Source of the DNA: an uncultured Propionivibrio sp.
GTDB taxonomy: Bacteria; Pseudomonadota; Gammaproteobacteria; Burkholderiales; Rhodocyclaceae
NCBI RefSeq assembly: GCF_963666255.1
Contig: NZ_OY762656.1
Span: 1,984,001-2,048,000, forward strand
DNA: 64,000 bases
Direction of reading: 5' to 3'
Shown here: piece after piece, positions 5,855 through 56,819 of the stretch
How positions within the stretch are numbered: position 1 is the first letter of the stretch
Layout of the letters: each line of letters starts with the position of its first letter
The notes under the pieces: generated by a model
What the model saw: the letters and a program-made list of their open reading frames with translations, nothing else
Database searches by the model: none
Told to the model about the DNA's origin: nothing
Position numbers and translations under genes: made by a program

Positions 5855-5945
5855 GGAGAGATGGATGAGTGGTTTAAGTCGCACGCCTGGAAAGCGTGTG
5901 TAGGGTAATACCCTACCGCGGGTTCGAATCCCGCTCTCTCCGCCA
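5855..5945 (+). tRNA. tRNA-Ser (anticodon GGA)
   Basis: A 91-nt class II tRNA with CCA encoded. The acceptor stem GGAGAGA pairs with TCTCTCC, followed by G and CCA. The anticodon loop CTGGAAA closes on the stem GCACGC/GCGTGT and carries GGA, reading UCC/UCU serine codons. A long variable arm (TAGGGTAATACCCTA region) and the T-loop GGTTCGAATCC are present. It is the attachment site of the island, and its 3' end is kept intact by attL. Confidence 0.97.
5932..5945 (+). repeat. attL core (tRNA-Ser 3' end)
   Basis: cgctctctccgcca, the last 14 bases of tRNA-Ser, is repeated exactly at 63667-63680. This is the usual product of tyrosine-integrase insertion into a tRNA 3' end. Confidence 0.88.
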
Positions 5946-32065: not shown

Positions 32066-32120
32066 GCAGAAATTGATGTTAAACTGAAAGCCCTGCAGTC
32101 GGACTAGACCGCAGGAAGTA

Positions 32121-38420: not shown

Positions 38421-41400
38421 TCAGGAGCGCGCGTGGAGCATTTTCCCTATTAGGGTATCCACAAATCCGATTTCAACGAATGGGACTTGGGCATAGATCA
38501 TCTCTCTGTTTCCTTCAAGCTTCGCCAGTAAATGACCTCTGCCAAGGAGACGTTCTGCACCTTTCTCACCAAGAGCGATTTCGGACGTCCCTTCAGAGTC
38601 GACGCGAAGAATCAGTCGATTACCCAAATTCGAGCGCAGCTGCATTGGCATAACGTAAGCATCCGGTCGCTGGGCAGCGAAAATCAGATAGATGCCCGCA
38701 GCTCTAGCCTTCACACCAAGCCGCTGAACTATTGCGGACACCGCCCCCTTGTACTCTTCCGTAAGCATCCATTCGGCAAATTCATCGTGAATGAGCCAGA
38801 TGACAGGCAGGCGTTCTCTTAGGGGGGCCTCAGCATTGTAGGCAGCTAGATTAGATACTCGCTTTTCCTTGAAGCGAGCGTAGCGGAGGTCCATTTCTGC
38901 TACGAGTTCTTCGAGTCTTTGGGTTGCCATGATCTGATCATCGACGATGCCGCCATCAATATGTGGCAGCCGATCGAATGCGAAATAGTCAACGCCTTGT
39001 TTTGGATCGATCAGGACTATCCTCGCCTGTTCTGGCGTGTTGGTCGCGGCAATCCCCAAAATGATATTTTGCATCAGGACGGATTTGCCGCTGCCGGTGC
39101 TGCCTGCGATCAGGGTGTGTGGCGCATGGTCTTTCCCAGGTGAGAGGAATAGAGGAGCCCCCGAGTTTTCTTGTGCCGCAATCAATAGCTCCTGATTACC
39201 CCAACCACTTGAGGTCGGCGACCAATCGGCCCAGAGGGAGCGAATATCGATAGTCTGGCGTTTGGGGCGCTCCACTGAGATCGTGACGGCACCGGGTTCT
39301 GGGCGGACCGATATAACGTTTAGCCCATAGGTCGTCAAGAGCTCTGACCTTTTCTTCAAGACTTGCTCGACGGTCAGGTTGGCGTTGCCGGCAAACTTTA
39401 GCAGCGCAGAATTGGGCGTAAGAGCCGAGCCGACCAATTTAGCCTGTAGTTGTAGCTGCTGCAGGGCGCTACGCGTCGAAAAAGCTGTTTGCTGGAGCCA
39501 CCCATCTTCTTCGGGCGCAATGGGCGCTGAGTGAAGGGCCGACGCAATCAAATCACCGATCTTAGAATAGGCCCAATGAGCTTGTGTCTGAGCACGCGAA
39601 GAATCGACTGGCAAAGGCACACTCTCTCCGGAGACCGGCTGAGGGGCCAGATCCTCAATGCTCGGTTCGTTCGGCATCTCTGCGGGCGCGTCCAGAAGCG
39701 GCTCAAGAACTGGCAGTGTGGGCAGGGACGTTGGTCTTTGGACAGGCATGCGATAAGCATTACGGAGAGGTGCGATACCGGAGCCAGGGGTTCTCCAAAT
39801 TGGCTCAAAGTCCATATGGAAGAAGTCCATTTCGCGCCGGACGTCGGCGGTGCTCTGATCATGCCAGTATGCCATCAAGAGCTGTTTGAGGGCCTTGCGA
39901 CCGATGATTTCCTGATAGGCATAACGAACATCGGCAATTTCAGTAGCGATTGTCGGGTCGTCGGCATCGGAGGAGGTCGGGACAAAAACGTGAGAGAGGC
40001 CTTTGAGGTGGACCTTGCAGCGCCCTTCGCGCATGGCGCGGCGCCATTCTCCAAGATCGATGCCTCTTGCAGCGGGGATGCGAATGCCGTCAAGCATAAG
40101 ATCAGCCAGTCGAGCTAGCCAGGATTGGCGGTCGAGCCGCTCCGGGTCGCCGAAAATTGCGTCTTCAAGGCGCTCGAGCGTATCGCGCAGCTGTTTTTGC
40201 GATTCTTTGCGCTTGGCAGCCAGACTCTCGATTTCCACATATTTCGCTTCGCTGACAGCAAGGGTGATCATCAGTGTGCCGTCTTCAGCTACTTGGGGGC
40301 AGATCGCGAGTAAGTCGGCGATCTGTTGTTCGCGCTGGCCAAGCCATGACGCGTAGTCATCAAGAAAGTACCAGCCGATTAGTTGGTCGGTACCTAGGTC
40401 GTCTCGTAACATGCGGCGACTCAGCACGATGCCCATCAATTCGCTTGCGCTCTGGCCACATGTGGCCGCGCGCAGCACGATGTCACCCGATACATCATTA
40501 GCCTCGTCGATCAGGCGATCGGCCAGTGTTCGTATCTCCGAATCGGTCAGCGGTAGTTGCAGCGCCCTGAGACGGCTCATAATCATCGAGCGCAAAAGCG
40601 TCATCGGTGCGCGTGAAGAGATGATTAGATTACGTCCCTGGGTTGAAATCTGCTTGTAGCGTATGACCCGGACTTGATGATTCATTAGCTGACGCCGATC
40701 GAGAAGCTCGTCGAAATTGACGACCCAATTGCCTAGGTCGTGGGTCTCCTCGAAGATGCGTTTAGTCCGGCCGTCGGCGAAATCGAGTTGGCGTACGGGC
40801 AAGAGGCGTTTTGATGTCGATTCATCTCGGTCACCTTTGAAAATGCTCGCGACGGCGGAGATATAAGCCCAGCCTTCAGCGCTTTGTACCGGGCAGCATA
40901 GGAAGACCGCTGATTTAAGGTCGTCTCGGGCAGCCGCCCGGCGGCGTGACCAGCGTGATGGCAACAGTTTGCGAATGTCGGCTGGTTCGCCTTGTTCGAG
41001 ATACCATTCGAGTTGCGCATGACGCGATATGACATCTTGCGAAAAAACGATGTCGTATGGATGGCCGTCTTTGGGGTTAGGCGGCGGCGCTTGGTCGGCA
41101 ATCACCGAAATTCGCAGGCGTGCCATGAAGTCTTGGGAGGCTTCACTTGCGCTATAGGCGTCTGCCGTAGCTTCGGAGCTCAGGATCGAGCAATAGATAT
41201 TACGAAGCTTCTGGCTTTCGATGTGGCGCAGCAGAACTTGGCATCGAACGTCGTCCTCGTCGTCCTGTATGTCGCCGATCTTCGCCACGACCGCCTGAGG
41301 CAGTCGTGCGGAATCGCAATTGAACAGTACGACTGACATGTTTGACCGTTCGTGCGGTTGCAGAGCGATATAGCGCTTGACGAGGTCATGGACGCAGGAG

Positions 41401-43691
41401 CTGCCCTCAGCAGGGCTTTCATTTGTGTCGTTCTCACTTCTGGGGTCTGCGATGGGGGGTTCATGCAGGCTGTAGTCGGCGACCACGTCGCTTGCTGTGA
41501 GAAATTGCGGGCCATCATTCGTCCAGATCGCCACAATCTCAGGGTAAAGCACGTGCTCAAAATCCTGAGCGATATCCCGAAAGAATAGCTTGGGGTCCCC
41601 CTCCGCCTCTATGCTGGCGAGAACCTGACTAACGAGGTCTATTGCGAGCTGATATTTTCGCCATATGGCGGCCAGACGCATCGGATGCCAGGGGGCGACG
41701 ACGGCCGCCGGCCTGCCACCGTCGATTGGCGCGACACCAATCATGAGCAGTGGTTTGAGCAGCTTGTTGCGATTGCGATCACCTTTGGCCAGTGTTAGGA
41801 CGGTTTCGAGCAGAGCGGCGTAAGCCGTCGTCTGATTGAGTATGGAGTCAGCGCCGCCCCCTTTTTTGGGGAAGTCGACAACTGCGAGCTTGTAGGCACT
41901 TTCAAATGTTGCAAAAGCTTCACCCAACGTCTTAGCATCTTGAGCGGAGAGATAGGCTTGATCAACGCACTCTCTGAGATTCTTGCGCCAAAATACGTCG
42001 AGATTCCGGTCAGGTTTAGCTGCAGGGACGAATGAGCCACGATCACGGTCAAAAGCCGGCATGAACGTTTTTACGTTGGCCAAATCGATCGATTTGTCGG
42101 CGGTAAATTCGCGCTGCGTGCGGCAGGCCGGGAAGGGGTTCTGGGTCAATCGACCCCAGTCGTCGACCAGTTGGCTTGCTACGCATGAGGGGTTATAGCG
42201 CCAGATCAGTTGCGTCGAGTGCTTTTGAATGCTGTCCTCGTCAGTCGTTGTCTCCAATTCGACGACGAATTTGAGTTGCAGTGCCGGCTTGGCAGTGGAT
42301 GTGTTGAGCTTATTCTTGGCCCTGTCGCCCTTTTTCCAGTCGGAGACAAGCTGGTCGAATTCGAAAAGATCGCCGACGTCCCAATCGATTTTCCCGCTGA
42401 ACAGGCGACGCAGGCCGGCATAGCGGTGCGCGAAATAGAGACCGGCTTCATAGTTGAGAGATCTCAGGTCTCTCTTTGTTGCGGATTCGCATTTGATTTT
42501 TAGCTTGCGCTGATTGCCCGGCGGCATGCGATTATAAAGCGGCTCCATAACCGCGCAAATGCCGGCGATGAAGTCGGTTGTCTCGATAGGGCGGCCATAT
42601 ACAAAGCGATCCCAAGCAGACTTCAGCTTCTTGTCGTCTTTTATTTCGCTGCGGTGGGCTTCATAAAAATCAGTGTCTTCATCGATTTTTTCTGACCGCT
42701 TGGACAGAAGCTTGAGATATTCCCGCTCTTCATCCTCAAGTTTATCTTCTTCCAGTTCACTGAAGTATTCAAGGGTGTTCTTGCCGAGGTTGAATTTATC
42801 GCGCTGCAGGCCATCGAAGATCGGCTTAATTTGCTCCCAATCTTGTTCGGCTAAAGCTTCGGCCTGGGCATTCCAGCCGCTGGGTGCCCTAATAAAGGCT
42901 TCGATCGTGGGGTGGCAGACATTCGGGATCTGATGCGCAACCTTTTCGAACGCGTTGCGCAAGTCTTCTTCGCTGAGTAGGAGCTGGCTTGAGGTCTGCT
43001 TGAGGAGCAGCCCAGATCGTCTCTTGTGAGCATTATTGAATTGCTGCCTCCATGCCGATGCATGACCGCGCTGCCGCTCTTTGAGGCTTCCGAAGCAGGC
43101 TGGGTCGTTTGGCAGGCGTAGTGCTGGCATTGCTGCACCCAGCGCATCGATGATGGGGCGGCCCGTATCCTCGTTTTCTCGGCGGGTGCGCAAGATATAG
43201 ACGGCAAAGCGGTCGATCGAGACGATTCGAAGATCGCGGAGCCCGGTCAGAGCTTTTTCCCACCATCTTTGCTGCTCCTGGGCGATAGGCAGGCCTGTTG
43301 ATGCCTCTCGAACCCAAAGGTCAATGCGCTCCAATAGCTCAGGTGGGCCAAGCTTTGCAATTTCACGAATCGAGGCGTCTTCACCATGTTCATGTTCAGC
43401 AAGTAGATAGGCTGCCTTCGGACAATCGGCGTTCCGATAGAAGGTAGCGTTTTCGGTCGTCAGAGTTTCATCAGGTAGACCTTGGTCGCTTACAAGCGAG
43501 ATCGGCAGCTTGATGTCGATACGCTCTTTGAGATACGGATCCGCGAGTACGGCGCGTGCGACTGCTGCGACCTGTTCGGCGCTAAGATTGAGCACATACC
43601 GCGCAGTCGACTGCGCCGCGCCCGTATCGGTCTGAAGTTCTTCGCGGAGATAGGCGGCGGCGACTGCGCCGACGAGCGAGGCCACGTTCAT
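38421..43691 (-). CDS. sspH: SspH/DptH-like restriction protein with FtsK-type motor
   Basis: A 1756-residue protein. The last 230 residues form a FtsK/HerA-like motor: Walker A GSTGSGKS (1530-1537), then VLIDPKQGVDYFAFDRLPHI, Walker B IWLIHDEF (about 1632-1639) and IFAAQRPD as sensor. The N-terminal 1500 residues are not assignable by motif. This size, ATPase position and place as last gene of a phosphorothioate cluster match DptH/SspH, the large component of the FGH restriction modules. It starts in a 4-bp overlap (ATGA) with the SspG-like gene. In this system it would translocate on or damage unmodified phage DNA. The activity is inferred from the described Dpt and Ssp systems. Confidence 0.72.
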   Translation of the reverse strand: MNVASLVGAVAAAYLREELQTDTGAAQSTARYVLNLSAEQVAAVARAVLADPYLKERIDIKLPISLVSDQGLPDETLTTENATFYRNADCPKAAYLLAEHEHGEDASIREIAKLGPPELLERIDLWVREASTGLPIAQEQQRWWEKALTGLRDLRIVSIDRFAVYILRTRRENEDTGRPIIDALGAAMPALRLPNDPACFGSLKERQRGHASAWRQQFNNAHKRRSGLLLKQTSSQLLLSEEDLRNAFEKVAHQIPNVCHPTIEAFIRAPSGWNAQAEALAEQDWEQIKPIFDGLQRDKFNLGKNTLEYFSELEEDKLEDEEREYLKLLSKRSEKIDEDTDFYEAHRSEIKDDKKLKSAWDRFVYGRPIETTDFIAGICAVMEPLYNRMPPGNQRKLKIKCESATKRDLRSLNYEAGLYFAHRYAGLRRLFSGKIDWDVGDLFEFDQLVSDWKKGDRAKNKLNTSTAKPALQLKFVVELETTTDEDSIQKHSTQLIWRYNPSCVASQLVDDWGRLTQNPFPACRTQREFTADKSIDLANVKTFMPAFDRDRGSFVPAAKPDRNLDVFWRKNLRECVDQAYLSAQDAKTLGEAFATFESAYKLAVVDFPKKGGGADSILNQTTAYAALLETVLTLAKGDRNRNKLLKPLLMIGVAPIDGGRPAAVVAPWHPMRLAAIWRKYQLAIDLVSQVLASIEAEGDPKLFFRDIAQDFEHVLYPEIVAIWTNDGPQFLTASDVVADYSLHEPPIADPRSENDTNESPAEGSSCVHDLVKRYIALQPHERSNMSVVLFNCDSARLPQAVVAKIGDIQDDEDDVRCQVLLRHIESQKLRNIYCSILSSEATADAYSASEASQDFMARLRISVIADQAPPPNPKDGHPYDIVFSQDVISRHAQLEWYLEQGEPADIRKLLPSRWSRRRAAARDDLKSAVFLCCPVQSAEGWAYISAVASIFKGDRDESTSKRLLPVRQLDFADGRTKRIFEETHDLGNWVVNFDELLDRRQLMNHQVRVIRYKQISTQGRNLIISSRAPMTLLRSMIMSRLRALQLPLTDSEIRTLADRLIDEANDVSGDIVLRAATCGQSASELMGIVLSRRMLRDDLGTDQLIGWYFLDDYASWLGQREQQIADLLAICPQVAEDGTLMITLAVSEAKYVEIESLAAKRKESQKQLRDTLERLEDAIFGDPERLDRQSWLARLADLMLDGIRIPAARGIDLGEWRRAMREGRCKVHLKGLSHVFVPTSSDADDPTIATEIADVRYAYQEIIGRKALKQLLMAYWHDQSTADVRREMDFFHMDFEPIWRTPGSGIAPLRNAYRMPVQRPTSLPTLPVLEPLLDAPAEMPNEPSIEDLAPQPVSGESVPLPVDSSRAQTQAHWAYSKIGDLIASALHSAPIAPEEDGWLQQTAFSTRSALQQLQLQAKLVGSALTPNSALLKFAGNANLTVEQVLKKRSELLTTYGLNVISVRPEPGAVTISVERPKRQTIDIRSLWADWSPTSSGWGNQELLIAAQENSGAPLFLSPGKDHAPHTLIAGSTGSGKSVLMQNIILGIAATNTPEQARIVLIDPKQGVDYFAFDRLPHIDGGIVDDQIMATQRLEELVAEMDLRYARFKEKRVSNLAAYNAEAPLRERLPVIWLIHDEFAEWMLTEEYKGAVSAIVQRLGVKARAAGIYLIFAAQRPDAYVMPMQLRSNLGNRLILRVDSEGTSEIALGEKGAERLLGRGHLLAKLEGNREMIYAQVPFVEIGFVDTLIGKMLHARS

Positions 43692-45214
43692 AGTGCAGAT
43701 CTCCGCAAGGGATTTTCGACATAAGCACAGGCATCGGATAGCCGCCGTAGCATGCCGATAGTCTTGAGGCGATTTTCGAGCCGCGAGGCATTGGCTTGAA
43801 ACGCTCGCTTGTCGAAATCTTCGGTGGTAATGGTGAGCTGCCCCTCCTGCTCTCCAAAGACGAAGCCGTATCGGTCGTAGAGGCGGCCAAGGAATTGGCC
43901 GTAGTCCATGCGTACCGGAACGTTGGCTAGGATTAGTGCCTTGAGGAGTTCATCGGTTGGTGCGTAGCGCAGCCGATTGGTGCCGCGACGCGAGACCAGT
44001 CCTGCGCCTCGTCCAAGGCTGCTGTGGACGTTGGCCGTATGCTGACGATGGCGCCGCTGCGCTGTGTAACGCAAATTTTCGAGGAGAGCGTCAGGGTCGA
44101 CTGGACCGGTGTAGTCCTCACCGGGCCAACGTACTTTTTCTCGCATGATTTCACGGCATGCCGTAAATCCGGACTGCTCTGCCGCCGCAGCAACCCATTC
44201 CGGCGAATTTCCGATACTTTGCACATAGGCATCGACTGCCGAAAGCGACAGTTGGTTGTTCGCGATGTAATTGCCTGCCGAAAGTTCACGAACCAGTGTT
44301 TTCTTGGGCGCGACAACTTCACAAATGAAGTGGGGTTTGGGCTTGTCACAGATGTGGGCGGCGACCTGTAGCTGATAAAGGGTGATATGAAGTGCTCCAA
44401 GGATCGTCAGGTATGGATAGGCGTCGAATCTTGGCAGTTGGAGTTCGAGAACGGCTAGCCAATCTTGGGCCAGCACCTCAAAGGCGGGATGCTTGGCGTA
44501 AGGTAGGTAGCTGCCGCTTCGCGTATGCCGCTCCTCGGAAACTTCCGGCTGAAGGAGTTCAGTAAGGCGATCACAGGGATCATGCCGCTCGAACAGATGT
44601 GCAAAATTTCGCGCGAGCTCAGGAGCAGCGTTTGATCGCGCGAGCATCTGATAAAGCAGATCGCCGTTGCGCGTGAAATTGATGTATTCGCGGCTGCCCT
44701 CAGTGTTGAGGTCTTCATAAATCGCATGGCGTCCAAACGGAAATACGAAACGAGAGCTCCATCTCTTATTCATGCTGCTTTCGATCGTCGCAGAGCGTAG
44801 CATTTCGATAACTTTGACGAGCTGTTCGAAGTTCTCAAATCTGTTCTTGAGATAAGAAAAATCTCGTTGTGTAACCATCTTGGCGTTGCTCTGCATCCAC
44901 TCAAGCCAATTAGCCCATCCGGTTTCGTTATCGGGATAGAGCTCGGCGAGTTCCAGCAGCTTGTCGTTGTTGAACAAGAGATTGCGCAGATAGGGCCTTT
45001 GTGCCGGCCGGAAGCTGAAAGGGAATTGTGTCGCGTTTGCCGCAAATAACTGCCCGGTTGCATGAGAGGCTTCTGCGACCGAGAGAAATTCTAGGAATAG
45101 GAGCCATGGGTCCTGCTCCCACAGTCTGTGGCCCCAGATTTGTTCGTCAAGCCACAAATCATTGTCATTATGATAGCTCGCCGGCGGAGGTGGAAGCGGG
45201 ACCATTTCAGTCAT
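43688..45214 (-). CDS. sspG: SspG/DptG-like component
   Basis: A 508-residue protein without a recognisable catalytic motif. Aromatic-rich N-terminal sequence (NDNDLWLDEQIWGHRLWEQDPWLLFLEFL) and an Arg-rich segment (YTAQRRHRQHTANVHSSLGRGAG, about residue 385) are the main features. Its identity rests on position: it overlaps both the SspF-like gene (8 bp) and the SspH-like gene (4 bp), so all three are translated together. G components of DptFGH/SspFGH are the small middle subunits. A scaffold role within a ternary restriction complex is assumed. Confidence 0.62.
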   Translation of the reverse strand: MTEMVPLPPPPASYHNDNDLWLDEQIWGHRLWEQDPWLLFLEFLSVAEASHATGQLFAANATQFPFSFRPAQRPYLRNLLFNNDKLLELAELYPDNETGWANWLEWMQSNAKMVTQRDFSYLKNRFENFEQLVKVIEMLRSATIESSMNKRWSSRFVFPFGRHAIYEDLNTEGSREYINFTRNGDLLYQMLARSNAAPELARNFAHLFERHDPCDRLTELLQPEVSEERHTRSGSYLPYAKHPAFEVLAQDWLAVLELQLPRFDAYPYLTILGALHITLYQLQVAAHICDKPKPHFICEVVAPKKTLVRELSAGNYIANNQLSLSAVDAYVQSIGNSPEWVAAAAEQSGFTACREIMREKVRWPGEDYTGPVDPDALLENLRYTAQRRHRQHTANVHSSLGRGAGLVSRRGTNRLRYAPTDELLKALILANVPVRMDYGQFLGRLYDRYGFVFGEQEGQLTITTEDFDKRAFQANASRLENRLKTIGMLRRLSDACAYVENPLRRSAL

Positions 45215-47054
45215 TTGAGATCTCTACGATTTGGTCGATGGCATTTCCAGTGCTATCCAGGGCAAGGAGCCGGAATATCAGACCATCGTCGTCATCCTGC
45301 GTATGACGGTTGATCGCCGCAGCCGATAGAAGAGCGCTCTTGAATGCCAACAGATCCTCATAGCATTCACGGGAAAAATTGCCAGGTAGCGCGCCATCGC
45401 TCACACGCATTAGGAATTCGTAGCGCGTGAGATTGAGGGCCAACGATCTCATTTGTCCGTTGGGCAGCGTTACGATGAGATGCGGAAAGTCGCGGTGCAG
45501 GGATATTTCGACTCGCTCCACACGCCCGAGGGAGCTGATGGCGACTTTGTCTTCGAGCAGTTGACTGATCTTGGCGCCGGAGTGCGACAGACTGGTCGCT
45601 AGCAGCAGCTCGCTTTTTGTCGTGGTAAGGAGTCCAGTGAAGATTCGGTTGAGCCCATTTACGAGCTTGCTGACTGTTTGACGCGACACACGCCTACCGT
45701 CGTTTAATGGTTGTACGATATCGCGCAGATATTCGCCTGCACTATTAAATACCGTCAAGCACCAAAGTTTCAGTTCCTCTGCGTAGGCATCTGGAATCTT
45801 GAAAAATAACCCGCGCCTTTGGTCAACAAGCATGTCAAGGAAGGGGTGCCGATCATCGTTCTGCGCCTCTGGCATCTCGATATAACTGCGTTGCTCGCCG
45901 CGATATCGTTCGGTTGCTCCGTAGAAGTCATCAGCTTCGACCAAGTCATGGAAATACTGGCTGACGCTCTCGTCTTCCGCACCGAAAATTAGGATGTTGT
46001 CGATTCGGTTCGTGGTCTCGAAGCCAATGCCGAATCGACAGAGATAGTCGAAGATCTCCTGCGCATCGCGTTTTGCGCTCTTCAGATTGGTTCCAAAGAG
46101 ATTGGCGAAGAGACTCGCCTTATGGGTTTCTCCAGCAGCAATGATCTTGGCCGCGTCAGATGCAGACATGAGACCGTCTTTGGCTGAGGGATGACCAAGG
46201 ATGGCGTTGGCAAGCAGTAGAAGGACGCGCCGGATCGGCGAGTGGAGCTCGTTGAAGTCCAGAAGTTGGAATAACGCTACTAGCCGGGTACGCACAAGCG
46301 GGTCGCGCAAAAGCTCAAAATTGCGCCGGATCGGGCATCTTGGACCGAAGAATCCGTTCGGTTGTGCGGCGGCATAGCAACTCTGCCAACCCTCGTGGTC
46401 AAGGAGTGCGTCTAGGCAGAGTGCCAATACCGTCGCACTGGAGACGGCGCTGAGATTAAAGAAATGCAAGCGGTCGGTCGGCTCTGGGTCTTCGTCATTC
46501 ATGAGCCGAGCTTCGAATAGCGCCAAGGCACGGTGCGCGGCGCCATGTGGGCCGAGCTTCCGCCAGTTTTCGACGAGAGGCCCGTCATTGGCAGCAACTA
46601 GGAATAGATTGGACGAGGGCTCGAATAATGCGGAGCTTAGTTCTTGCAGAAGCTCGGCTTTTGAACCGTCCGGATCGTTCTTGCAGAACGGTGTTAAGTC
46701 GCGAATGAGATGGAGCGTGTAAGTGTGACCATTGATGGTCACAGGCAGCTTGAAATAGGATGTATTGTCGGCCCACGCGTCTGGTGAGCCTCCCAACGCC
46801 TCCCACACTTGGTAGCAGAGGTGGCTTTTGCCGTCACCGGCTGTACCAGTGAGTATGACCACGCCACCGTGGCCTTCTTTGCGGTCAGTGAAGGAGGCGA
46901 GTACGTCATGGCTAAGCGGATGCTCGAAGGCGATGGGGGCGACATTGAGCCTCTTCGACCATCGTCGAATCTCTTCGTCATACATGTTCGCGTTGCGCGC
47001 GAGAGGACCATATTGCCTGACGAAGCTGATCCATTTTTCGGCGTCGACTGTCAT
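45207..47054 (-). CDS. sspF: SspF/DptF-like ATPase
   Basis: A protein of 615 residues from ATG 47054. The longer frame to 47198 lacks conservation. A P-loop NTPase starts VVILTGTAGDGKSHLCYQ (Walker A about 70-77), with VNF-type strands after it (LHLIRDLTPF, NLFLVAANDG). This resembles DptF, the ATP-binding first component of the FGH module, and is more STAND/KAP-like than AAA. The middle and C-terminal helical regions are unassigned. It starts 155 bp after the REC-protein stop, the widest gap on this side, so translation of sspFGH may be less tightly coupled to the regulators. Confidence 0.68.
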   Translation of the reverse strand: MTVDAEKWISFVRQYGPLARNANMYDEEIRRWSKRLNVAPIAFEHPLSHDVLASFTDRKEGHGGVVILTGTAGDGKSHLCYQVWEALGGSPDAWADNTSYFKLPVTINGHTYTLHLIRDLTPFCKNDPDGSKAELLQELSSALFEPSSNLFLVAANDGPLVENWRKLGPHGAAHRALALFEARLMNDEDPEPTDRLHFFNLSAVSSATVLALCLDALLDHEGWQSCYAAAQPNGFFGPRCPIRRNFELLRDPLVRTRLVALFQLLDFNELHSPIRRVLLLLANAILGHPSAKDGLMSASDAAKIIAAGETHKASLFANLFGTNLKSAKRDAQEIFDYLCRFGIGFETTNRIDNILIFGAEDESVSQYFHDLVEADDFYGATERYRGEQRSYIEMPEAQNDDRHPFLDMLVDQRRGLFFKIPDAYAEELKLWCLTVFNSAGEYLRDIVQPLNDGRRVSRQTVSKLVNGLNRIFTGLLTTTKSELLLATSLSHSGAKISQLLEDKVAISSLGRVERVEISLHRDFPHLIVTLPNGQMRSLALNLTRYEFLMRVSDGALPGNFSRECYEDLLAFKSALLSAAAINRHTQDDDDGLIFRLLALDSTGNAIDQIVEISND

Positions 47055-47209
47055 TACCGCTTCTCCAACGGCATTAAAGTAGATATTCGGAGATGCTTGC
47101 ACTCCTGCTTGAACTCCGCGAGCGCCGAAAACGACGCATTTCTGATACGTGGGGCAGTGTTGAGCTAGAAACCGGAAATGGCGTCTTGTGTGCCCCAATA
47201 AGGTTTCTA

Positions 47210-49174: not shown

Positions 49175-51545
49175 CCCGTGCTCCTCCGTATGTCATGACG
49201 AATCCATGGTGGACCCGGTCTTCATCGGCTTCCGCGAGTGAGATTTCCATTGCATTACCTTCTGCAAGCTTCTTCGCGATATACAAACCCATCCCGCGAC
49301 CCTCGCCAGAAGGCTTGGTCGTGAAGAATGCATTGAATACTTCGTCGCCACGATCTTCCGGAATGCCAGGGCCGTTGTCCAGAACTGTAAGTATGTTGCC
49401 GGCCCTGTCGATGCTGAAACTGATGACTGGATCGAATTTCGTTGTTGCCGCAAGCAACTTGAGCCAATAAACTGAGTTGGAAATGAAATTTTCTACGATC
49501 TGCAGAAACTGCCCGCGGACGGCTTTGATCAACACGGGGGCCTTGCCTAGACCGGTTAGGTCGACTCGGATTTCATGACGCCCAAATTGGGGGGCGTGCA
49601 TTTCCACGACTTCCTGCAGCGTCTGAACTAAGTCAAACGATTCTTTTCTTTGACGTCCCGGCGTTGACAACGGATCCAGGATACGGATTCGCCTCTCGAG
49701 AGTGCTCAGTTGATCTCGTAAATTCCGAAGCTGTCGATTCTCGGTGGCGTTGCTCGATTTGTAGGTCTGAAGCAACTTCAACGCGTTTGCGGATAGGCGA
49801 GCTAGTTCATGGAAGATAAATTCTGTCATTAAGCCGACGCCTGCAAGATGGACGTATTTGTCGATGTCCTCTTCATAGGCTCGCACGGCGATCTTAGAGC
49901 GTTCCCAGGCTTCGGACATGTCTGTCATACGAGCGAGCAGTGTATTGATCGCCGCAATATCCTCAGGAGCTTTGACTTTGGTCCTCAAGTGCTGAACCTG
50001 CTTCAGCGCCTGCTTTTGGGCCTCCTCCAGGCGCTTCTCCAGCTTTGGAAACTCTTTGGCCGCTGATTCGTCCTGGGCCCCCTCGACAGCGTTCAGGTAG
50101 CTCTTGAACTCGACCACTAAGATGTGGCGCAATAACGCTATAAGCGCAGCTTTCTCTTCGGTGTCACGCAAACCTTCCCGGTTGGTCTGATCCTGCAAAT
50201 GTGGATTGCCACGGCTAGAAATGCGAACTGCTCCGACCAATTGCTTCCGATTCATTTTGTAGCCCTGTGTGGCCAACGCAATGCCGTCTAGATCGAGCCA
50301 GTCGTCGCGTGGTTCCGCGTACGGATATACGCGGTAATGATCACGATAAAGTAGTAACCCTCCGCCCCAATGCGTTAACCACTGCAGAGCTGCTTCGTAG
50401 CCATCAGGTTTATCTAGGCGAAGCTTCTGCCGGTTAAACCAATGTGCTTCCATCTCAAATGGACCAAGACTTACAAGACCCTGGATCAGAGTGCCTGGTG
50501 GTCGGAAGACCTCGCCCGTCTTTGGACGCTTACCCTTCAAAGTAAGCGCGCTGAGGAGATGTATCCCCTCAAGGCTGAAGTTCTTGCTCTGCCCATAGGA
50601 CTTATACGTCACGTCGCCCGATAGCACTGGTTGGCCGTCAGCGTCGAGCGAAAAACTTGCGGAGCATCGGGCATGTGCATATGCGAGTTGACGTGTCTGA
50701 AACGATGGGATGTCGACTGACTGCCCATTAAAGTAAAGTCGTACATTTGGGCGGCTGAATGTCGTAAGGAGTGGATCCACCAACTTTGCAAAATCAGTCT
50801 TTGCAAGAGATTCCATCTTTTCGATTGACCACTCGCTCGTCAAGTTAGACATGCGGATGATCGTGCCGTGGTCCGACGCTTTATTTTTCTTCGGCCCCAC
50901 ATTGGGAGCAGCAGGGAACTCGTCGAGGTTTAGATGCGGATTACGCTTAATCGCAGACCAGTCGATCTTAAGTTCAGACTGCGCTTTATCGCCATTTTTG
51001 GAGGTTAAGACGTGAAGCTGATCTCCGAGGCGTACAGCAGAGAGTCGGCCGATACCTTTTTCTCCGAGCACATTATCGGCGCTACCGCGCAGTCGGTCGT
51101 CCAAGCGGTGGGTGGTCCCGATCGTGAGATAGACGCCACCGAGGTCCTCGAACGACATGCCGCCACCGTCGTCAACGATTTCGATCCAATTCGATCGAAT
51201 GTAGGCAGCATCTAGTGCCTGAACGTAGCTGGTATCCGATGGTGACAATGCAATTTCGAGGAAGGAGTCACGGTCAACTTGAGCAGCTGTGGGCTCCATG
51301 CCGGCTTCAAGCATTTGCCGAACCGTGTCTCGGGAGAGTCGCTCCTTCTTCTGGGCTGATCGCTCAAGTCTTTGGCGAATACTGAAGTATTCACTTCGCG
51401 GTAGTGTGACGTGAACGTGTACCTCGATGCGGGAGGCCCGAGCATCTAGCGAGTTCTTTACCAACTCATAGATCGCGATCTGGTCAGAGCTGATCAACTC
51501 CGCCCCGAGTTCAAGAAGGACGCGTGCTTTGACTGTTATTCCCAT
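49161..51545 (-). CDS. Histidine kinase with two GHKL ATPase domains
   Basis: A 794-residue protein from ATG 51545. The N-terminal 300 residues are an HSP90/MutL-like GHKL ATPase: IYELVKNSLDA (N31, D34), IVDDGGGMSFEDL, LGEKGIGRLSAVRLGDQ. A coiled coil follows (LEKRLEEAQKQALKQV). Then LMTEFIFHELARL holds a candidate phosphoacceptor His (H579). The final 150 residues are a histidine-kinase catalytic domain: ENFISNSVYWLK, LDNGPGIP, FFTTKPSGEGRGMGLYIAK. It has no membrane segment, so it should sense a cytosolic signal. The gene lies downstream of sspD with a 112-bp gap holding three 8-bp repeats. Such dual-GHKL kinases pair with REC proteins in defence islands. Confidence 0.82.
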   Translation of the reverse strand: MGITVKARVLLELGAELISSDQIAIYELVKNSLDARASRIEVHVHVTLPRSEYFSIRQRLERSAQKKERLSRDTVRQMLEAGMEPTAAQVDRDSFLEIALSPSDTSYVQALDAAYIRSNWIEIVDDGGGMSFEDLGGVYLTIGTTHRLDDRLRGSADNVLGEKGIGRLSAVRLGDQLHVLTSKNGDKAQSELKIDWSAIKRNPHLNLDEFPAAPNVGPKKNKASDHGTIIRMSNLTSEWSIEKMESLAKTDFAKLVDPLLTTFSRPNVRLYFNGQSVDIPSFQTRQLAYAHARCSASFSLDADGQPVLSGDVTYKSYGQSKNFSLEGIHLLSALTLKGKRPKTGEVFRPPGTLIQGLVSLGPFEMEAHWFNRQKLRLDKPDGYEAALQWLTHWGGGLLLYRDHYRVYPYAEPRDDWLDLDGIALATQGYKMNRKQLVGAVRISSRGNPHLQDQTNREGLRDTEEKAALIALLRHILVVEFKSYLNAVEGAQDESAAKEFPKLEKRLEEAQKQALKQVQHLRTKVKAPEDIAAINTLLARMTDMSEAWERSKIAVRAYEEDIDKYVHLAGVGLMTEFIFHELARLSANALKLLQTYKSSNATENRQLRNLRDQLSTLERRIRILDPLSTPGRQRKESFDLVQTLQEVVEMHAPQFGRHEIRVDLTGLGKAPVLIKAVRGQFLQIVENFISNSVYWLKLLAATTKFDPVISFSIDRAGNILTVLDNGPGIPEDRGDEVFNAFFTTKPSGEGRGMGLYIAKKLAEGNAMEISLAEADEDRVHHGFVMTYGGARDGGS

Positions 51546-51573
51546 AGGCAGCAACCTATTGGCACAAAAATTG

Positions 51574-51597
51574 GACAGCAAGACAGCAAGACAGTAA
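51574..51597 (-). repeat. Three tandem 8-bp repeats before the kinase gene
   Basis: gacagcaa, gacagcaa and gacagtaa follow one another at 51574-51597, 29 bp upstream of the kinase start and next to a six-T run on the minus strand. They may be a binding site or, less likely, slipped-strand repeats. Confidence 0.6.
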
Positions 51598-51657
51598 AAA
51601 ACGCGGAGATCGGGGGCCCTTCGGAGTAGGGCACGGCAACCCTATGCCAAGCTGCAG

Positions 51658-52485
51658 TCACAGCTGACATACGAGGCATCCTTGATCGTCATCGTCCTCC
51701 GGTATCTCAGCAGAACCTGCCTGCGCGAACACCTCCATTAGCGTCACGTTCTCACGCCGCAATGCCTTGCGCTCAATGCGGATCACGTGTTCACGCTTGA
51801 TCTCCTCCATGCGTTCAGGCCGTTCCAGTTCTGCCAGACTTTCTCCTTGGCTCCACGTAAAGAAGTTGCCGGTTTTCTCATATGGTTTCTCGTAAGCCTT
51901 AGCTTTTTCGTAAAGATCCGGATGCGTTTCCTTAAGGCGAACCCACTCGATTTTCTGTTGGTAGAAGCAGAAGTAGCAGCCCGATCGGGTACGACCCCAA
52001 CGCGTATACGGTGGCATGCCTACGCCGGAGGTTCGCAGGATCTCTTCAATGTCGCGAAGAACCAAACCGTCCTCGCGAAACGGATATACCGCTTTGATAT
52101 TTGGTTTGTGGCTGATATAGCCGCTGCGGTCTTCGTCGGCACGTAGCCCCACATAATTCACGACCTCGTCGTTGCCGCAGTGTTGTTCAAAAGGCTTGAG
52201 CTTCAAGGCTCGCGTACACCAACGGCGGTGGTTGGACGGAATCATGCCACCATACATCTCATACCAATGGTCGAACCCGACATCCGCATTGAGATGCGTT
52301 ACTTCTTTGCCGAGGTAGTTTGAGATGCGCTGTAGATACTCATAGGTTTCAGGGAGCTCCTTGCGTGTATCGCTGAAGATGTATTCCATCTCCGGAACAC
52401 GATCGCGCAAGTATATGGCCAGCGCAGCACTGTCCTTTCCGCCGGACAAGCTGAGAATATGCCTAACTCGCTTCTCGCTTGCCAT
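51658..52485 (-). CDS. sspD: SspD-like PAPS-reductase-family sulfurtransferase
   Basis: A 275-residue protein of the PAPS reductase/ATP-pyrophosphatase family. The PP-loop is SGGKDS (14-19), and IFSDTRKELPETYEYL is the adjacent helix. Cys residues in RRWCTRALK, GCYFCFYQQK and the C-terminal GCLVCQL could bind a Fe-S cluster or carry sulfur. In SspABCD systems SspD activates the DNA backbone and supplies sulfur for single-strand phosphorothioation. GGAGAAG precedes the ATG. The start overlaps the SspC-like gene by 23 bp. Length agrees with SspD and is about half of DndC, which favours Ssp over Dnd. Confidence 0.82.
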   Translation of the reverse strand: MASEKRVRHILSLSGGKDSAALAIYLRDRVPEMEYIFSDTRKELPETYEYLQRISNYLGKEVTHLNADVGFDHWYEMYGGMIPSNHRRWCTRALKLKPFEQHCGNDEVVNYVGLRADEDRSGYISHKPNIKAVYPFREDGLVLRDIEEILRTSGVGMPPYTRWGRTRSGCYFCFYQQKIEWVRLKETHPDLYEKAKAYEKPYEKTGNFFTWSQGESLAELERPERMEEIKREHVIRIERKALRRENVTLMEVFAQAGSAEIPEDDDDQGCLVCQL

Positions 52486-55400
52486 GGTGCTTCTCCTCTG
52501 TGGAAATCGTAGGTGCGTGCATTACCTGAAGATCCTGCAGCGCTTGAGCTAGGGCTGCAGCGGCGACTTGCGGGTCGGCGTCGGACTCTCGTGTGAGCAG
52601 ATCCAATACACTGCGTGCAAGGCTGGAGGACTGTTCAGTCGTGGCGACCAGCAGCGTGGCCTCCTGTCCGCCAGCGCTGGTGAGAGTCAAACTCAAGAAG
52701 CGCTCGGCCGTACGTGGCGCGTCCTTACGCTGCATCACTAGACGCAGCCAGCGACGATAATGACCAGAAATTTCCGTCACTGCCTGTGCAAAGCGGTCGA
52801 TAGTCTCGTCCGTCCAGGCGTCCAGAGGGCGCTGAACGAGTAGGCTTGCTACGGAATCGAGCCACTTCTCATCCGTCAGCGTTAAGTCCGTGCAACGAAG
52901 GATAAAGCTCTTGAGTCGGGCGTCTGCTAATCCAGCAGCTGCGCTCGAACATTCGGCCTGCAATTGGCTTCGAATCTTGCTAAGTGATCCAGACATTTCG
53001 AATGCCTGCCCCAACTCAGCAATGACGGTGTCTTGTAGCTTGCGTTGGCTCATTCCTAGATCCGTCAGCGCTGCGCCCAACCATTCCTGGAAAAGGGGAG
53101 TCCCCTTGCTCTGTGTGTGCGCTTTCGGTAGTGTTGAAGTGAGCAACAGGATCGGGTCCTGCGCCTTGCGCAAGGCCGAGCGAACCAGTGCAGCATCCTT
53201 GCTGACTCGTCTTGTCTGCTGCGTAAAGTCCGACAGTCTTGCGAACCAGTGGTATAGCGCACGGGCCAGTTCCAGATAGGTTTTGTCACCGCTGGGCGCC
53301 GCCCCGAGGGAGGCTAGCACAGCGCCGAGGTCGCGCATCAAATTGCGGCCTCGCTGCACCTGCGGAACTTCGTGCAAAGTGAATGTATGCGGATTCCGAT
53401 GCATGCGTTGAAGGTGCTCGCTGGATAGTTCCAGCACCAGTGTGCCGCGCTCGAAAACTGCGCAGCGACTGCGATGGATCATCAGATAAAGCGTGACCCA
53501 TACACTGGCCGGACCATTGCGCACTCCAAACGGAGGAGCGGCCAGAGCCTGAAGAACTTGCTCGAATGTGGGGGCATTTTCTCTTGCCAGAACGAGCGAA
53601 ATTTCCGCCCAGAGTGCGGAGATATCGACATGGGCCTCTGGTTTGGGTGCGACTAGTTTCCAGCCGTCGCTGCTAGCTTGCCATATGCCGGTGTCGCGTA
53701 ATAGAGTGGCATGGATTAGTCGTTCGGGCGGGTACTCGTTATCGCCAAAGAGAGGAGCTTCACCTGCACATGCCAACAGAGCGTCAAATAGCCGCTGACG
53801 TGCCAGAACGATAGCGGAAGCGGGGCGATTCTTGTTGATCAGTTCATTGATGATACGCGGCGCACGATGGAAGACCTTCTCGAACATCCAAGAAGCCACC
53901 TGACCAACGTTCATCGATTTGCTGTTCGGAATGATCTTCCCTTGGTACCAATACTCTGGACCAGTCTGTCCCGGGCTAGATGCTAATGCGGAGAGCACAA
54001 GCGCATCGACATCCTCTTTAGCTTGGAGGAGGCGGCTCTCAACGTACTGACTGGTCCAGGGGTCGAGTCGCTTGGAAGCCACTTCGCGTTGTACCGTCAG
54101 CCAAATTGCCAACTCTGCGAGCGCCGCCCTTCCTTGGGCAGACAACGACAGGCAGCAATACACACTGCGCAGATCGTCCGCGTTGCGTACGCGGTCCAAC
54201 GTCAGTAGTTCTTCCCGGGAATTCGTCGTTGTTAGAATCAGTCGAAGCCAGCCGTCGGGTTGCCCATCCGAATCATTCTGGTTGGTGCCTGCATGGGGCC
54301 AAGCTGTGATCGTTCCAACATCAATAGCCAATGTACGGATCGTTCCTCGGCGGTCATAGTGCTTGTTGGCCACAACCAATCGATTTCCAAGTGCGTGCGA
54401 GGCCCCTCGCACAATAAGCTCGTCATCGCTGGTCTGCGCTGCATGCTCATAGAGCGCTTCGATGTTAACGGCGTCTGATACGGCGAAACCGTATTCGGAG
54501 TGGTTGTGCCGACAAATCAACAGGCCTTGGCCTACAAGGCGGTCCAGTAGCTCCTGTGTCTCGGTGACTCTGAGGTTGCCTAGCGCAAATGCGACCAGCT
54601 CCGGAGTAATGCGTAGAGTGAGAGGCGCCTGTACTAACTCCAGCACGGCAATGGTCTTGAGTGCCAACAAGGCATCTGCGTCTTTCGCTTGCCTTTCAAT
54701 GTTCACCAGCGCAAATGCCCAACGACGTTCTGCAGCGAGATCGCGAAAGCGTAGTCCATTTCCCGATGCTAGATAGTCGAACATCTGGGGAAGGCGATAC
54801 CAGGGATATCCCTCTACGGAGGTGACCTGCGCGAAATCCCGAAGCCCCGCCGGCTCGTTGCTGTTGAGGAAAGCATGGAATGAGCGCTCGCTTTGACCAT
54901 AGCGCTTGGAGATAATGGCCAGAGAAGCTAACGCCAGGGGGTGGAGGGGGTAGAGTTTTTCGGGATGTTGAAACAGCCGGCGGTCAGCAGGCGTTGGCGC
55001 TCGAAGGATAGATTGCTCCAGTGCTGTTTGGAATACAGACCGTGCGGCTTCCAGAAGTTCGGGAGCTCGGTGTAGCAGCGGCTTGGCGCCCAGTGCATGA
55101 GTAGCGAAGTGCACGTAACGCTCGACGGGCTCGTCGAACGGGATCTCTTCGAAGCGAGACGCGACCTTGTGCCACTCTTCTCCAAGAGTGCGACCAATGC
55201 CCGCGGCGTAACTCGCGAAGTGCTGATGCTGAAGGACGACCATTACGAGAGAGTCATCTCCTTGCCGACATGCTTCTTCAGCCAGTTGCTGAAGTGCGAT
55301 CAGGTCCCCCGCTTCAGGGTGCATTGCGGCGTGCTCGACGAATTTCCCCACTTCATCAACCAGGAGCAACGTGCCAGAGAATCCTTGGGTACGAGCGACT

Positions 55401-55921
55401 AGCGCGAAATCGTGCATCAATTCCCCGGCAACCGCGTTGATGGGGCGCCCCTTGTAGAAGCCTGGCTCACTTAGATGACGTTGCAAGGTGCTGACTCCCT
55501 TGCATTGGCGCCAGCCTTCCAGAGCGCGATGGATTTCCGCTTCCAGTGCTAAGCCGATGGACAGCCGTGCCCCCACGATTGCGAGCGTGAAACGTCTGGA
55601 GCTCGTGAATAGCTCAGCGACAGCCGCAGAGGCCTTTCGCAGCATTTCCGAGGTCGCAGGATGCGCGTCATTACCGGCGAGCAACTGGGCAAGCACAATG
55701 CCCAGCGCAGACTTGCCGCTTCCATAAGGGCCAACCAATTTCCAGGCACGCTGCGACCGACATTCCGTAAGCGCCGTACCAATCTGCTTGAGTGCATGGA
55801 CAGCATTAGGCGTCGGTAGGTAGCTGGCGAGTGCCGTATCGTCATGGAGATCACGGCTTAGAGAGATGGAGCGGGTGTGGCGTCCGTTCAGCTCTAGTCC
55901 ATCGATGATTCGTTTAAGCAT
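52463..55921 (-). CDS. sspC: SspC-like P-loop ATPase
   Basis: A 1152-residue ATPase from ATG 55921, which has AGGAGG nine bases upstream and overlaps the SspB-like stop by 8 bp. Walker A is GPYGSGKS (64-71). Walker B is LLLVDEVGKFVEH (about 182-194), followed by LQQLAEEACRQGDDSLVMVV. The long C-terminal part is helical and has no named domain. Position between DUF4007 and SspD fits SspC, the ATPase partner of the phosphorothioation complex. Its length is large and also recalls BrxC/PglY ATPases of BREX systems, so SspC homology should be checked. The protein may power DNA opening or choose the target site. Confidence 0.75.
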   Translation of the reverse strand: MLKRIIDGLELNGRHTRSISLSRDLHDDTALASYLPTPNAVHALKQIGTALTECRSQRAWKLVGPYGSGKSALGIVLAQLLAGNDAHPATSEMLRKASAAVAELFTSSRRFTLAIVGARLSIGLALEAEIHRALEGWRQCKGVSTLQRHLSEPGFYKGRPINAVAGELMHDFALVARTQGFSGTLLLVDEVGKFVEHAAMHPEAGDLIALQQLAEEACRQGDDSLVMVVLQHQHFASYAAGIGRTLGEEWHKVASRFEEIPFDEPVERYVHFATHALGAKPLLHRAPELLEAARSVFQTALEQSILRAPTPADRRLFQHPEKLYPLHPLALASLAIISKRYGQSERSFHAFLNSNEPAGLRDFAQVTSVEGYPWYRLPQMFDYLASGNGLRFRDLAAERRWAFALVNIERQAKDADALLALKTIAVLELVQAPLTLRITPELVAFALGNLRVTETQELLDRLVGQGLLICRHNHSEYGFAVSDAVNIEALYEHAAQTSDDELIVRGASHALGNRLVVANKHYDRRGTIRTLAIDVGTITAWPHAGTNQNDSDGQPDGWLRLILTTTNSREELLTLDRVRNADDLRSVYCCLSLSAQGRAALAELAIWLTVQREVASKRLDPWTSQYVESRLLQAKEDVDALVLSALASSPGQTGPEYWYQGKIIPNSKSMNVGQVASWMFEKVFHRAPRIINELINKNRPASAIVLARQRLFDALLACAGEAPLFGDNEYPPERLIHATLLRDTGIWQASSDGWKLVAPKPEAHVDISALWAEISLVLARENAPTFEQVLQALAAPPFGVRNGPASVWVTLYLMIHRSRCAVFERGTLVLELSSEHLQRMHRNPHTFTLHEVPQVQRGRNLMRDLGAVLASLGAAPSGDKTYLELARALYHWFARLSDFTQQTRRVSKDAALVRSALRKAQDPILLLTSTLPKAHTQSKGTPLFQEWLGAALTDLGMSQRKLQDTVIAELGQAFEMSGSLSKIRSQLQAECSSAAAGLADARLKSFILRCTDLTLTDEKWLDSVASLLVQRPLDAWTDETIDRFAQAVTEISGHYRRWLRLVMQRKDAPRTAERFLSLTLTSAGGQEATLLVATTEQSSSLARSVLDLLTRESDADPQVAAAALAQALQDLQVMHAPTISTEEKHHGKREAS

Positions 55922-56819
55922 GGATGGGAGCCTCCTCTTGTGTCTCCAGTAGGTAGTACGGATCGATGCGGTTGCGCTGGAGTACAACGCTTTGTGTGTC
56001 GGAGGTGTCAACAAAACGTAGGGCGTCGCGTAAGGGGCCTTGCGCCAAATTCTCTACGAAAGCGCGCAACTGAAATTCATCCAGCCGGAAGACGGCTCCG
56101 GGGCTTCCCGCCCCCTTGAGCAAACGATGAAAATCAACAGATGACAAGCCTTTCTCGCACGAAGCCACGAACTCTATCAACGCGATAGCAAACACGCGTT
56201 GGCTCAAACCGATCGGCGTGCGAAGACCGGTGTTAAAGACGATACGTCCATCCTCTTCCTTGGCTGCGCGTAGCAATGCAAGGTCCTGCAGCGGGCACCA
56301 GGAAGTATCGTCGCCGTTGCGCTCGGCTTGGTAGTAGCTTTGGAGAAAAATGGCGGCGTGCTGCTCCAGCGTGCTAGTGGCAAGCGGCCTAGCCGAAACC
56401 GCTGCACGTTGAGCCAGTGCGGTGATTAGCCGCTGGCGGTCGAAGCGTACAAGTCGCCCCTCACCGAAGACCTCCGACCAGGCTGCCAGTGCTGCACGTG
56501 TGCAGAGGCGCCAATGCAACAACCATAATGACTCTAGAGACTCTAGATGCTGGTCCCATCCGCGCTTGGGGTCGAGCAGCTTGCGGCCGACGGGGCCTGG
56601 TTGGTGACCATGCCCAGTCGTGGGCACAAGAACACCCGTAGCTTCGCACCAGAATTGCAGTGACTTCAGCATGTTGCGGCCGATACCTAGCGTGTGCATC
56701 GCCCGCTCTTCATCCTTCAAGAGATCAGGGGTTACGGAAACAGCTTGGTAGGCCTTTGGCAGCCAGCCGTATCGGCATACGAAGGACTCATGTCCGGAAA
56801 AACGATCAGCGATTGTCAT
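55914..56819 (-). CDS. sspB: SspB-like DUF4007 protein
   Basis: A 301-residue DUF4007 protein. The N-terminal motif FSGHESFVCRYGWLPKAYQAV is the family signature. SspB of the SspABCD systems is, as I recall, a DUF4007-type nicking endonuclease that makes the break for sulfur incorporation. No classical nuclease motif is visible, and the conserved H of SGHESF may matter. ATG 56819 lies six residues before the signature; the ribosome site there is poor, so an upstream start (for example 56885) is possible. It is the first gene of the defence operon and overlaps sspC, so expression is coupled. Confidence 0.75.
   Translation of the reverse strand: MTIADRFSGHESFVCRYGWLPKAYQAVSVTPDLLKDEERAMHTLGIGRNMLKSLQFWCEATGVLVPTTGHGHQPGPVGRKLLDPKRGWDQHLESLESLWLLHWRLCTRAALAAWSEVFGEGRLVRFDRQRLITALAQRAAVSARPLATSTLEQHAAIFLQSYYQAERNGDDTSWCPLQDLALLRAAKEEDGRIVFNTGLRTPIGLSQRVFAIALIEFVASCEKGLSSVDFHRLLKGAGSPGAVFRLDEFQLRAFVENLAQGPLRDALRFVDTSDTQSVVLQRNRIDPYYLLETQEEAPIHA

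Follow-up and report, generated by a model that had tools for sequence, protein, structure and literature searches.

The stretch of DNA analysed here, referred to as the window, comprises 64,000 nucleotides of contig NZ_OY762656.1 from an uncultured Propionivibrio sp. On its minus strand, positions 38421-56819 are occupied by a phosphorothioate-type defence operon of the Ssp kind, within which lies a pair of genes for a histidine kinase and a receiver protein. Eight leftward genes had been proposed for this interval by a first-pass annotation. All eight open reading frames (ORFs) are present, in the order SspB-SspC-SspD-kinase-receiver-SspF-SspG-SspH, and the likely ATG of SspB coincides with the end coordinate of that proposal. 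The GHKL kinase and the receiver (REC) protein had been named there and left uninterpreted, and they form the main subject of the present analysis. Coordinates are collected in Table 1; gene starts are likely start codons, from which all junction lengths were computed.

Table 1. Features of the window, with strand and supporting evidence.
Feature	Position	Strand	Evidence
SspB (DUF4007)	55914..56819	-	PADLOC SspB 368 bits; Pfam DUF4007 200 bits; likely ATG 56819
SspC, large ATPase, Walker A GPYGSGKS	52463..55921	-	PADLOC SspC 1604 bits
SspD, PAPS-reductase-like	51658..52485	-	PADLOC SspD 393 bits; Pfam PAPS_reduct
Double-GHKL histidine kinase	49161..51545	-	Pfam HATPase_c_3 + HATPase_c; conserved residues; AlphaFold2 model; Foldseek
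Receiver protein, 654 aa	47210..49174	-	Alignment, receiver residues, structure model
SspF, P-loop ATPase, Walker A GTAGDGKS	45207..47054	-	PADLOC SspF 679 bits; likely ATG 47054
SspG	43688..45214	-	PADLOC SspG 632 bits
SspH, 1756 aa, C-terminal FtsK/HerA-like ATPase	38421..43691	-	PADLOC SspH 2190 bits; Pfam FtsK_SpoIIIE
Probable left attachment repeat CCGCTCTCTCCGCCA, last 15 bp of tRNA-Ser	5931..5945	+	Sequence repeat
Island tyrosine integrase	62228..63511	-	Pfam Phage_integrase, Phage_int_M, Arm-DNA-bind_3

Judged by its sequence matches, the operon is an SspBCD-SspFGH single-strand phosphorothioate system, a further example of a known system (mBio 2021). The proposed assignment of the first three genes to SspBCD and of the last three to SspFGH was borne out by the profile search, in which Ssp models are the best PADLOC matches for all six proteins by wide margins. 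The trio of DUF4007, ATPase and PAPS-reductase-like genes is complete at the locus according to Pfam and PADLOC, SspF, SspG and SspH all stand nearby, and the kinase-receiver pair is located between both modules. SspBCD marks DNA with phosphorothioate, while SspFGH, coupled to SspBCD, restricts phage (PMC8092258). A placement of the locus in BREX type 4 or Dnd instead of Ssp draws on secondary PADLOC matches of SspC and SspD to BrxC and BrxP. It is hardly credible and was rejected, since the Ssp models score far higher (for SspC, 1604 bits against 267 for the best BrxC model), PglZ (PF08665) is absent from the genome at E 0.001 in a search with BrxL outside its scope, and the single DndC model tried (PDLC02662) finds no match in the genome at E 0.001. 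No SspA reaches 40 bits within the window; IscS is above cut-off elsewhere in the genome.

The Ssp proteins retain the expected motifs. SspC, SspF and SspH each contain a single Walker A match, in SspH at 1530, and SspD has the SGGKDS loop together with Cys 89, 169, 172, 269 and 272 (numbered without the first Met), invariant in 26/26 aligned sequences. SspB presumably has nicking activity. DUF4007 has been described as a triple winged-helix DNA-binding family (PMC12839542). The statement that most genes overlap by 4-23 bp applies to five of the seven junctions (B/C 8, C/D 23, kinase/receiver 14, F/G 8 and G/H 4 bp), while the other two are gaps, of 112 bp between SspD and the kinase (start 51545) and of 155 bp between the receiver and SspF (start 47054). 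The gaps divide the operon into three tight cassettes, BCD, kinase-receiver and FGH, rather than one unbroken overlap; the single coordinated unit proposed earlier is indicated by the layout only, and that layout is interrupted at these two places. A sigma-70 scan gave fewer promoter-like sites (5) than the mean of shuffled sequences (11.2), and therefore no promoter is claimed in either gap.

The kinase ORF has 806 residues, or 794 from the likely ATG at 51545, from which residues are numbered below, and Pfam identifies two GHKL ATPase domains in it. A MORC/Hsp90-like ATPase lies N-terminally in the place of the sensor, followed by long helices, the phospho-acceptor candidate H579 and a catalytic ATP-binding domain. 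The kinase alignment was the sole query in a scan of GTDB genome contigs for relatives, and the best 80 of at least 444 were kept by kinase similarity. Across the window and these 80 loci, E27, N31, D34, D125, G127 and G129 of the N-terminal domain are conserved in 81/81 sequences, as are H579, N686, N690, D723, G725, G727 and G753 of the transmitter, with G751 in 80/81. The AlphaFold2 model, built from 61 aligned sequences, has a mean predicted local distance difference test (pLDDT) score of 82.6. When it was compared with the PDB by Foldseek, the top match was the MORC2 structure with DNA, at E 2e-10 and a TM-score of 0.53 relative to target length but 0.33 relative to query length; TRAP1 and HK853 came next. 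Among PDB sequences, a profile search matched residues 523-783 to sensor kinases and gave Hsp90-type N-domains within 72-192. HATPase_c_3 and the MORC2 match at the top of the Foldseek results place the protein with MORC/paraMORC proteins, a group marked by an N-terminal GHKL ATPase with an S5-like domain, these two parts being judged together. Its N-terminal domain also shows likeness to the GHKL portion of the restriction enzymes BbrUII/HgiDII (E 4e-20, 71.9 bits, far below the family cut-off of 550). The score of the kinase for HEF_HK (PF19191), 15.8 bits, is below the Pfam cut-off of 24.1. The kinase is thus a MORC-like clamp, placed where kinases hold their sensor and joined to a complete transmitter.

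The second protein of the pair had been called a REC protein. No family match supports that name, and it stands instead on receiver residues conserved across the window and 79 relatives. An N-terminal receiver domain with a long insert is followed by middle helices and, at approximately residues 330-654, a C-terminal domain with GD...CDL...R.G motifs. In receiver domains, the corresponding residues form the acidic pocket, the phospho-acceptor, the switch residue and the conserved Lys. Here, D20 and K219 are present in 80/80 sequences and D19, D149 and S191 in 79/80, the single change at S191 being a Thr (L041). Within the C-terminal half, G364, C387, D388, R487 and G489 are conserved in 77-79/80, the misses including stretches cut by contig ends. 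In the structure model (mean pLDDT 83.3), approximately 107 residues, mostly helical, are inserted between the first two strands of the receiver part. The roles of such residues are set out for a related family in PMC8011034, and the elements by which that paper recognises two-component proteins (His, N, G1 and G2; DD, D, S/T and K) are all found in the pair, with single exceptions.

The receiver protein has no match in Pfam, PADLOC, NCBIfam, PHROGs or the PDB sequences. Foldseek finds nothing at E 0.001 in the PDB, and likewise none in BFVD; weak matches to receiver domains can be observed, for example 5kbx_B with a TM-score of 0.54 by target length. Among ten receiver members, 0/10 match Response_reg_2 (PF19192) at E 0.1 in Pfam, and two single-member Pfam matches at E 0.05-0.08 were disregarded. 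A PDB sequence profile search gave 0 matches at E 5, and none of these searches gave the C-terminal domain a known fold. The CD...RLR...RxG region of this domain is also seen in four proteins that partner more remote double-GHKL kinases at non-Ssp loci (hhalign 91%, E 1e-6), and it is therefore probably a shared output domain of such pairs, a new domain to characterise.

The pair is tied to Ssp genes over most of its nearest relatives, neighbouring genes being identified with profiles from the window and the plasmid loci at 40 bits or more. A receiver follows the kinase in 79/80 loci, the remaining stretch (L060) stopping right after the kinase. Ssp genes lie within approximately 10 kb of the kinase in 77/80 loci; 17 of these have BCD and FGH genes, 57 BCD genes only and 3 FGH genes only. 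The one-strand order B-C-D-kinase-receiver is found in 42/80, 9/80 have the pair located between SspC and SspD, all on the same strand, and in 11/80 the pair is convergent on SspD. Receiver and Ssp genes are both present at 76 loci; there, measured between stop-to-stop frames, the pair and the nearest Ssp frame are a median of 34 nt apart, and the distance is 300 nt or less in 61/76 and reaches a maximum of 6.9 kb. These loci are partly dependent; in L013, L016 and L020, for instance, the gene coordinates are identical along much of the locus.

The same association was observed on plasmids. SspD lies within 12.2 kb in every one of the 16 records whose kinase match reaches 29% identity and 75% coverage, positions having been compared by hand; two records from A. 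tumefaciens and four from A. baumannii look like near copies. The next two plasmid records, at 22-24% identity, are absent among the 60 SspD records listed. Nine plasmid regions inspected (L002-L010) all contain Ssp genes; that of Methylorubrum extorquens (L005) has SspABCD and the pair, with FGH absent from its 22-kb stretch. Ssp genes are missing from the regions of two more distant relatives on plasmids (L011, L012) and of three genome relatives (L103-L105). On a Rhizorhabdus plasmid (L007 6933-9653), an IS5 transposase interrupts SspF, and the adjacent kinase-receiver pair stays open.

Pairwise protein distances, which were compared irrespective of host kinship, indicate how the modules have been inherited. 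Kinase and receiver distances correlate with rho 0.79, comparable to values within BCD (SspB-SspC 0.78, SspC-SspD 0.71, SspB-SspD 0.65) and within FGH (SspF-SspG 0.91, SspF-SspH 0.83, SspG-SspH 0.79), all values that involve FGH being drawn from 7-20 loci, some of them near copies. Correlations of the kinase with the Ssp proteins are lower (SspB 0.48, SspC 0.51, SspD 0.30, SspF 0.39, SspG 0.25, SspH -0.16), as are those of the receiver with SspC (0.42) and SspH (-0.19). The separation between the two Ssp modules is less clear (SspD-SspF 0.75, SspD-SspG 0.76, SspC-SspF 0.65, SspB-SspH 0.37). The pair therefore appears to be a module of its own, nearer to the modification genes than to SspH. Furthermore, a quick kinase tree with 72 rows, made up of the window, 6 rows from plasmids, 5 from non-Ssp relatives and 60 from the 80 genome loci, places 67 Ssp-labelled rows on one side of a branch and the five non-Ssp relatives opposite; L062 and L078 are labelled Ssp in it, their stretches holding no Ssp gene. 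At least nine phyla are represented among the kinase rows, several of them by metagenome-assembled genomes. A single origin of the Ssp-linked kinases is suggestive only, since the rows were picked by similarity and the five outgroup rows are mostly long.

Taken together, the locus is read as an Ssp phosphorothioate defence system with an optional MORC-type kinase-receiver module, a DNA-sensing phosphorelay that would gate modification or restriction, to which a probability of roughly 0.55 is assigned. SspBCD, with a host cysteine desulfurase (for example IscS in place of SspA), would mark host DNA, and SspFGH would restrict phage DNA. With a clamp-like domain as sensor, what the kinase reads may well be DNA and not a small molecule. 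Most likely, the N-terminal GHKL clamp would close on DNA in an ATP-dependent manner and might read its state, whether unmarked, nicked or being translocated. The state of the clamp would then drive autophosphorylation at H579, with subsequent transfer to D149 of the receiver, and the C-terminal domain of the receiver may gate modification or restriction by protein contact, not by transcription. For methylation systems, DNA looping by paraMORCs has been proposed in the literature (PMC2292703), and it is speculated in PMC8011034 that the clamp may sense nucleotides.

Several observations weigh against this reading of the locus. Stretches L019, L062 and L078 (3/80) contain no Ssp gene, D19 and D149 are in addition missing from the L078 receiver as read in the chosen frame, and the other 364 relatives lie outside the sample of 80. 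The distance correlations leave host kinship uncorrected. The output of the receiver is a guess, because its C-terminal domain has no known fold match, and a DNA-binding role of that domain is conceivable as well. In addition, most Ssp systems do without the pair. SspD occurs in 11/398 Pseudomonadota genomes, and the pair is found in 0/10 of the other SspD-positive ones within 16-20 kb round SspD. In a class-level sample, SspD occurs in 10/369 genomes and the pair in 1/9 besides the Propionivibrio genome itself (L116). On plasmids, 10-12 kb separate the pair from SspD in six of the 16 records; for this reason, the 19 other Ssp-positive genomes were searched over their whole length with the receiver profile, and the pair was again found in 1/19. 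A count of kinases in the 398 Pseudomonadota genomes scored two candidates per genome and is therefore not usable as a negative. The rarity of the pair indicates that it is not needed for Ssp function; together with its presence in 16/61 plasmid SspD records, it marks the pair as an optional addition that only some Ssp systems carry.

An ordinary two-component switch for transcription of the ssp genes would also employ the canonical kinase and receiver residues described above, and regulation of SspE expression has been proposed for Acinetobacter in a 2020 paper on phosphorothioates of the human microbiome (PMC7464106). Such a switch is nevertheless unlikely here: Pfam recognises no DNA-binding output domain in 10/10 members, nor does Foldseek beyond the weak receiver-type matches, a GHKL clamp and not a ligand domain occupies the sensor place, and the genes are located inside the ssp run, in nine loci even between SspC and SspD. 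Chance company on shared islands, in which the pair would be an unrelated defence or regulatory cassette, would account for its absence from 18/19 other Ssp-positive genomes, for the 112- and 155-bp gaps that flank it in the window and for its only loose correlation in distance with BCD and FGH. This is very improbable, given that 77/80 kinase loci and 16/16 plasmid records are linked to Ssp and that chance proximity is estimated at far less than 1, with SspD in 11/398 genomes.

The pair may alternatively be an effector, a phosphorothioate-dependent restriction or abortive module that supplies the missing partner of orphan SspBCD and would act beside FGH in the window. SspBCD stands without FGH in the examined stretch at 57/80 loci, and single-query BLAST searches reported in PMC8092258 found 2,211 of 2,678 sspBCD loci without FGH or E. 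Among the 41 BCD-only loci with full 9.5-kb flanks, single-sequence searches, which may miss diverged relatives, found PbeA/PbeC-like genes at 4, SspE-like genes at 2, part of a three-gene cassette at 1 and an 813-residue family at 6, and none of these at 28. The resemblance of the kinase N-terminal domain to BbrUII/HgiDII would fit the same role. However, diverged SspE may be missed by such seeds and effectors may lie more than 9.5 kb away, the receiver has no match to a nuclease fold, and the pair coexists with FGH in the window and at 17/80 loci that also hold BCD genes. An effector role is regarded as doubtful. A tentative variant, possible at best, is that the pair acts as a phosphorothioate-reading partner of many orphan SspBCD modules: the clamp kinase would check the sulfur mark, the phosphorylated receiver would be or trigger the effector, and in the window the pair would add a second layer to FGH.

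Further genes recur close to the pair. A three-gene set (approximately 560, 595 and 310 residues) lies beside SspBCD in L095, L096, L097, L099, L100 and L118, with two of the three genes in L055, and is possibly another restriction partner. In L097 its members show PADLOC likeness to PbeA and mREase_IV, to MzaB and to ZacB/DrmC, respectively, whereas the sets of L095, L096, L099 and L100 were called by ORF lengths only; L095 additionally has SspE. A large family (813 residues in L040) occurs near SspBCD-kinase-receiver in L039, L040, L050, L068, L086 and L089, and also in L051 and L087; for its members in L040 and L050, neither Pfam nor PADLOC gives a match. PbeA- and PbeC-like genes are found within 10 kb of the pair in L062, L063, L069, L082 and L083, PADLOC having been run on one PbeA (L063) and one PbeC (L062), and Pbe modules may thus serve Ssp marks too.

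The operon is carried on a genomic island, as the first-pass annotation had suspected, probably bounded by a repeat of the 3' end of tRNA-Ser and equipped with an integrase. The right copy of the 15-bp repeat lies in the same genome (C2 2051968-2051982), 3,968 bases beyond the window end, and the island would span approximately 62 kb. The guanine-cytosine (GC) content is 0.63-0.65 over the first 6 kb of the window and then 0.49-0.57 to its end; the shift coincides with the tRNA-Ser gene, and GC returns to 0.65 within 2 kb of the right repeat. An AlpA-like regulator accompanies the integrase at 61077-63511, with a second integrase just beyond the window. Upstream of sspB, at 57609-60054 on the plus strand, are genes for a MobA/MobL-like protein, whose sole PADLOC match is DpdH (196 bits), and an AAA_25 ATPase, which suggests plasmid-like mobilisation genes on the island. 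Other cargo includes two adjoining large ORFs of 1115 and 487 residues with no Pfam or PADLOC match (9337-14287, plus strand), a caspase-domain protein with SH3_3 (14452-16071, minus strand) and a guanidine-II riboswitch (32119-32163, plus strand). Near the right end of the island, just beyond the window, lies an AAA ATPase of the NsnB/AriA/OLD kind (L106 2096-3784, plus strand).

How the moment of cutting is decided in Ssp systems has, to our knowledge, not been described, and the pair offers a genetic handle both on this decision and on the orphan sspBCD loci. If the phosphorelay is real, MORC-clamp histidine kinases that sense DNA would wire a phosphorelay to a mark of the DNA backbone, beyond the methylation systems. 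In the open-access literature, which included few subscription papers and no bioRxiv preprints, no paper was found that describes the pair as a general Ssp module. Within the literature searched, what is new is how the pair is built in Ssp loci, that it is strongly tied to Ssp across phyla and inherited as a unit, and that its receiver carries an output domain without assignment. SspBCD-FGH itself is already known, as are kinase-receiver pairs of paraMORC type beside methylation systems (PMC8011034). The main text of a 2024 reappraisal of the phosphorothioate machinery (PMC10853773) contains none of the terms histidine kinase, MORC, receiver, two-component, GHKL or HATPase.

Among described systems, SspABCD-SspFGH of Vibrio anguillarum FF-93 (PMC8092258) is the closest to the Ssp part of the operon, with the same six Ssp proteins (SspB, C, D, F, G and H) divided into two modules alike. 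No local SspA match was found in the window, IscS being available in the genome. The part of that paper used here describes no kinase-receiver pair as a component. Likeness to MADS is weak. SspG resembles MAD7 (E 2e-10) and SspH resembles MAD8 (E 3e-21), and PADLOC identifies no other MADS gene among the eight operon proteins; this likeness over 38421-45214 hints at a restriction module common to sulfur and methyl marks. In Acinetobacter, kinase genes adjoin SspE in 211 strains (PMC7464106), and an A. baumannii Ssp without a nuclease, with a histidine kinase nearby, was mentioned as a possible new Ssp variant (PMC12421847). That kinase probably belongs to the pair seen beside SspDCB in L010. 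Both reports concern one genus and touch on the kinase in passing, the type of sensor, the conservation of the partner and the spread being undescribed in the portions cited. A clamp-type GHKL ATPase has likewise been proposed to control an antiphage effector in VcSduA, a Shedu protein (PMC12137116), in which a nuclease is fused to the clamp, whereas in the window a kinase core is fused to it and no nuclease is recognised. A parallel to the pair itself is provided by the HEF_HK/Response_reg_2 paraMORC pairs (PMC8011034), which have the same HATPase_c_3 in the sensor place, a phospho-acceptor, HATPase_c and an adjacent receiver, and which are likewise tied to a DNA modification system. The main text of that paper holds neither the term phosphorothioate nor DUF4007; its pairs stand beside methylation systems, whereas the pair of the window stands beside phosphorothioate genes.

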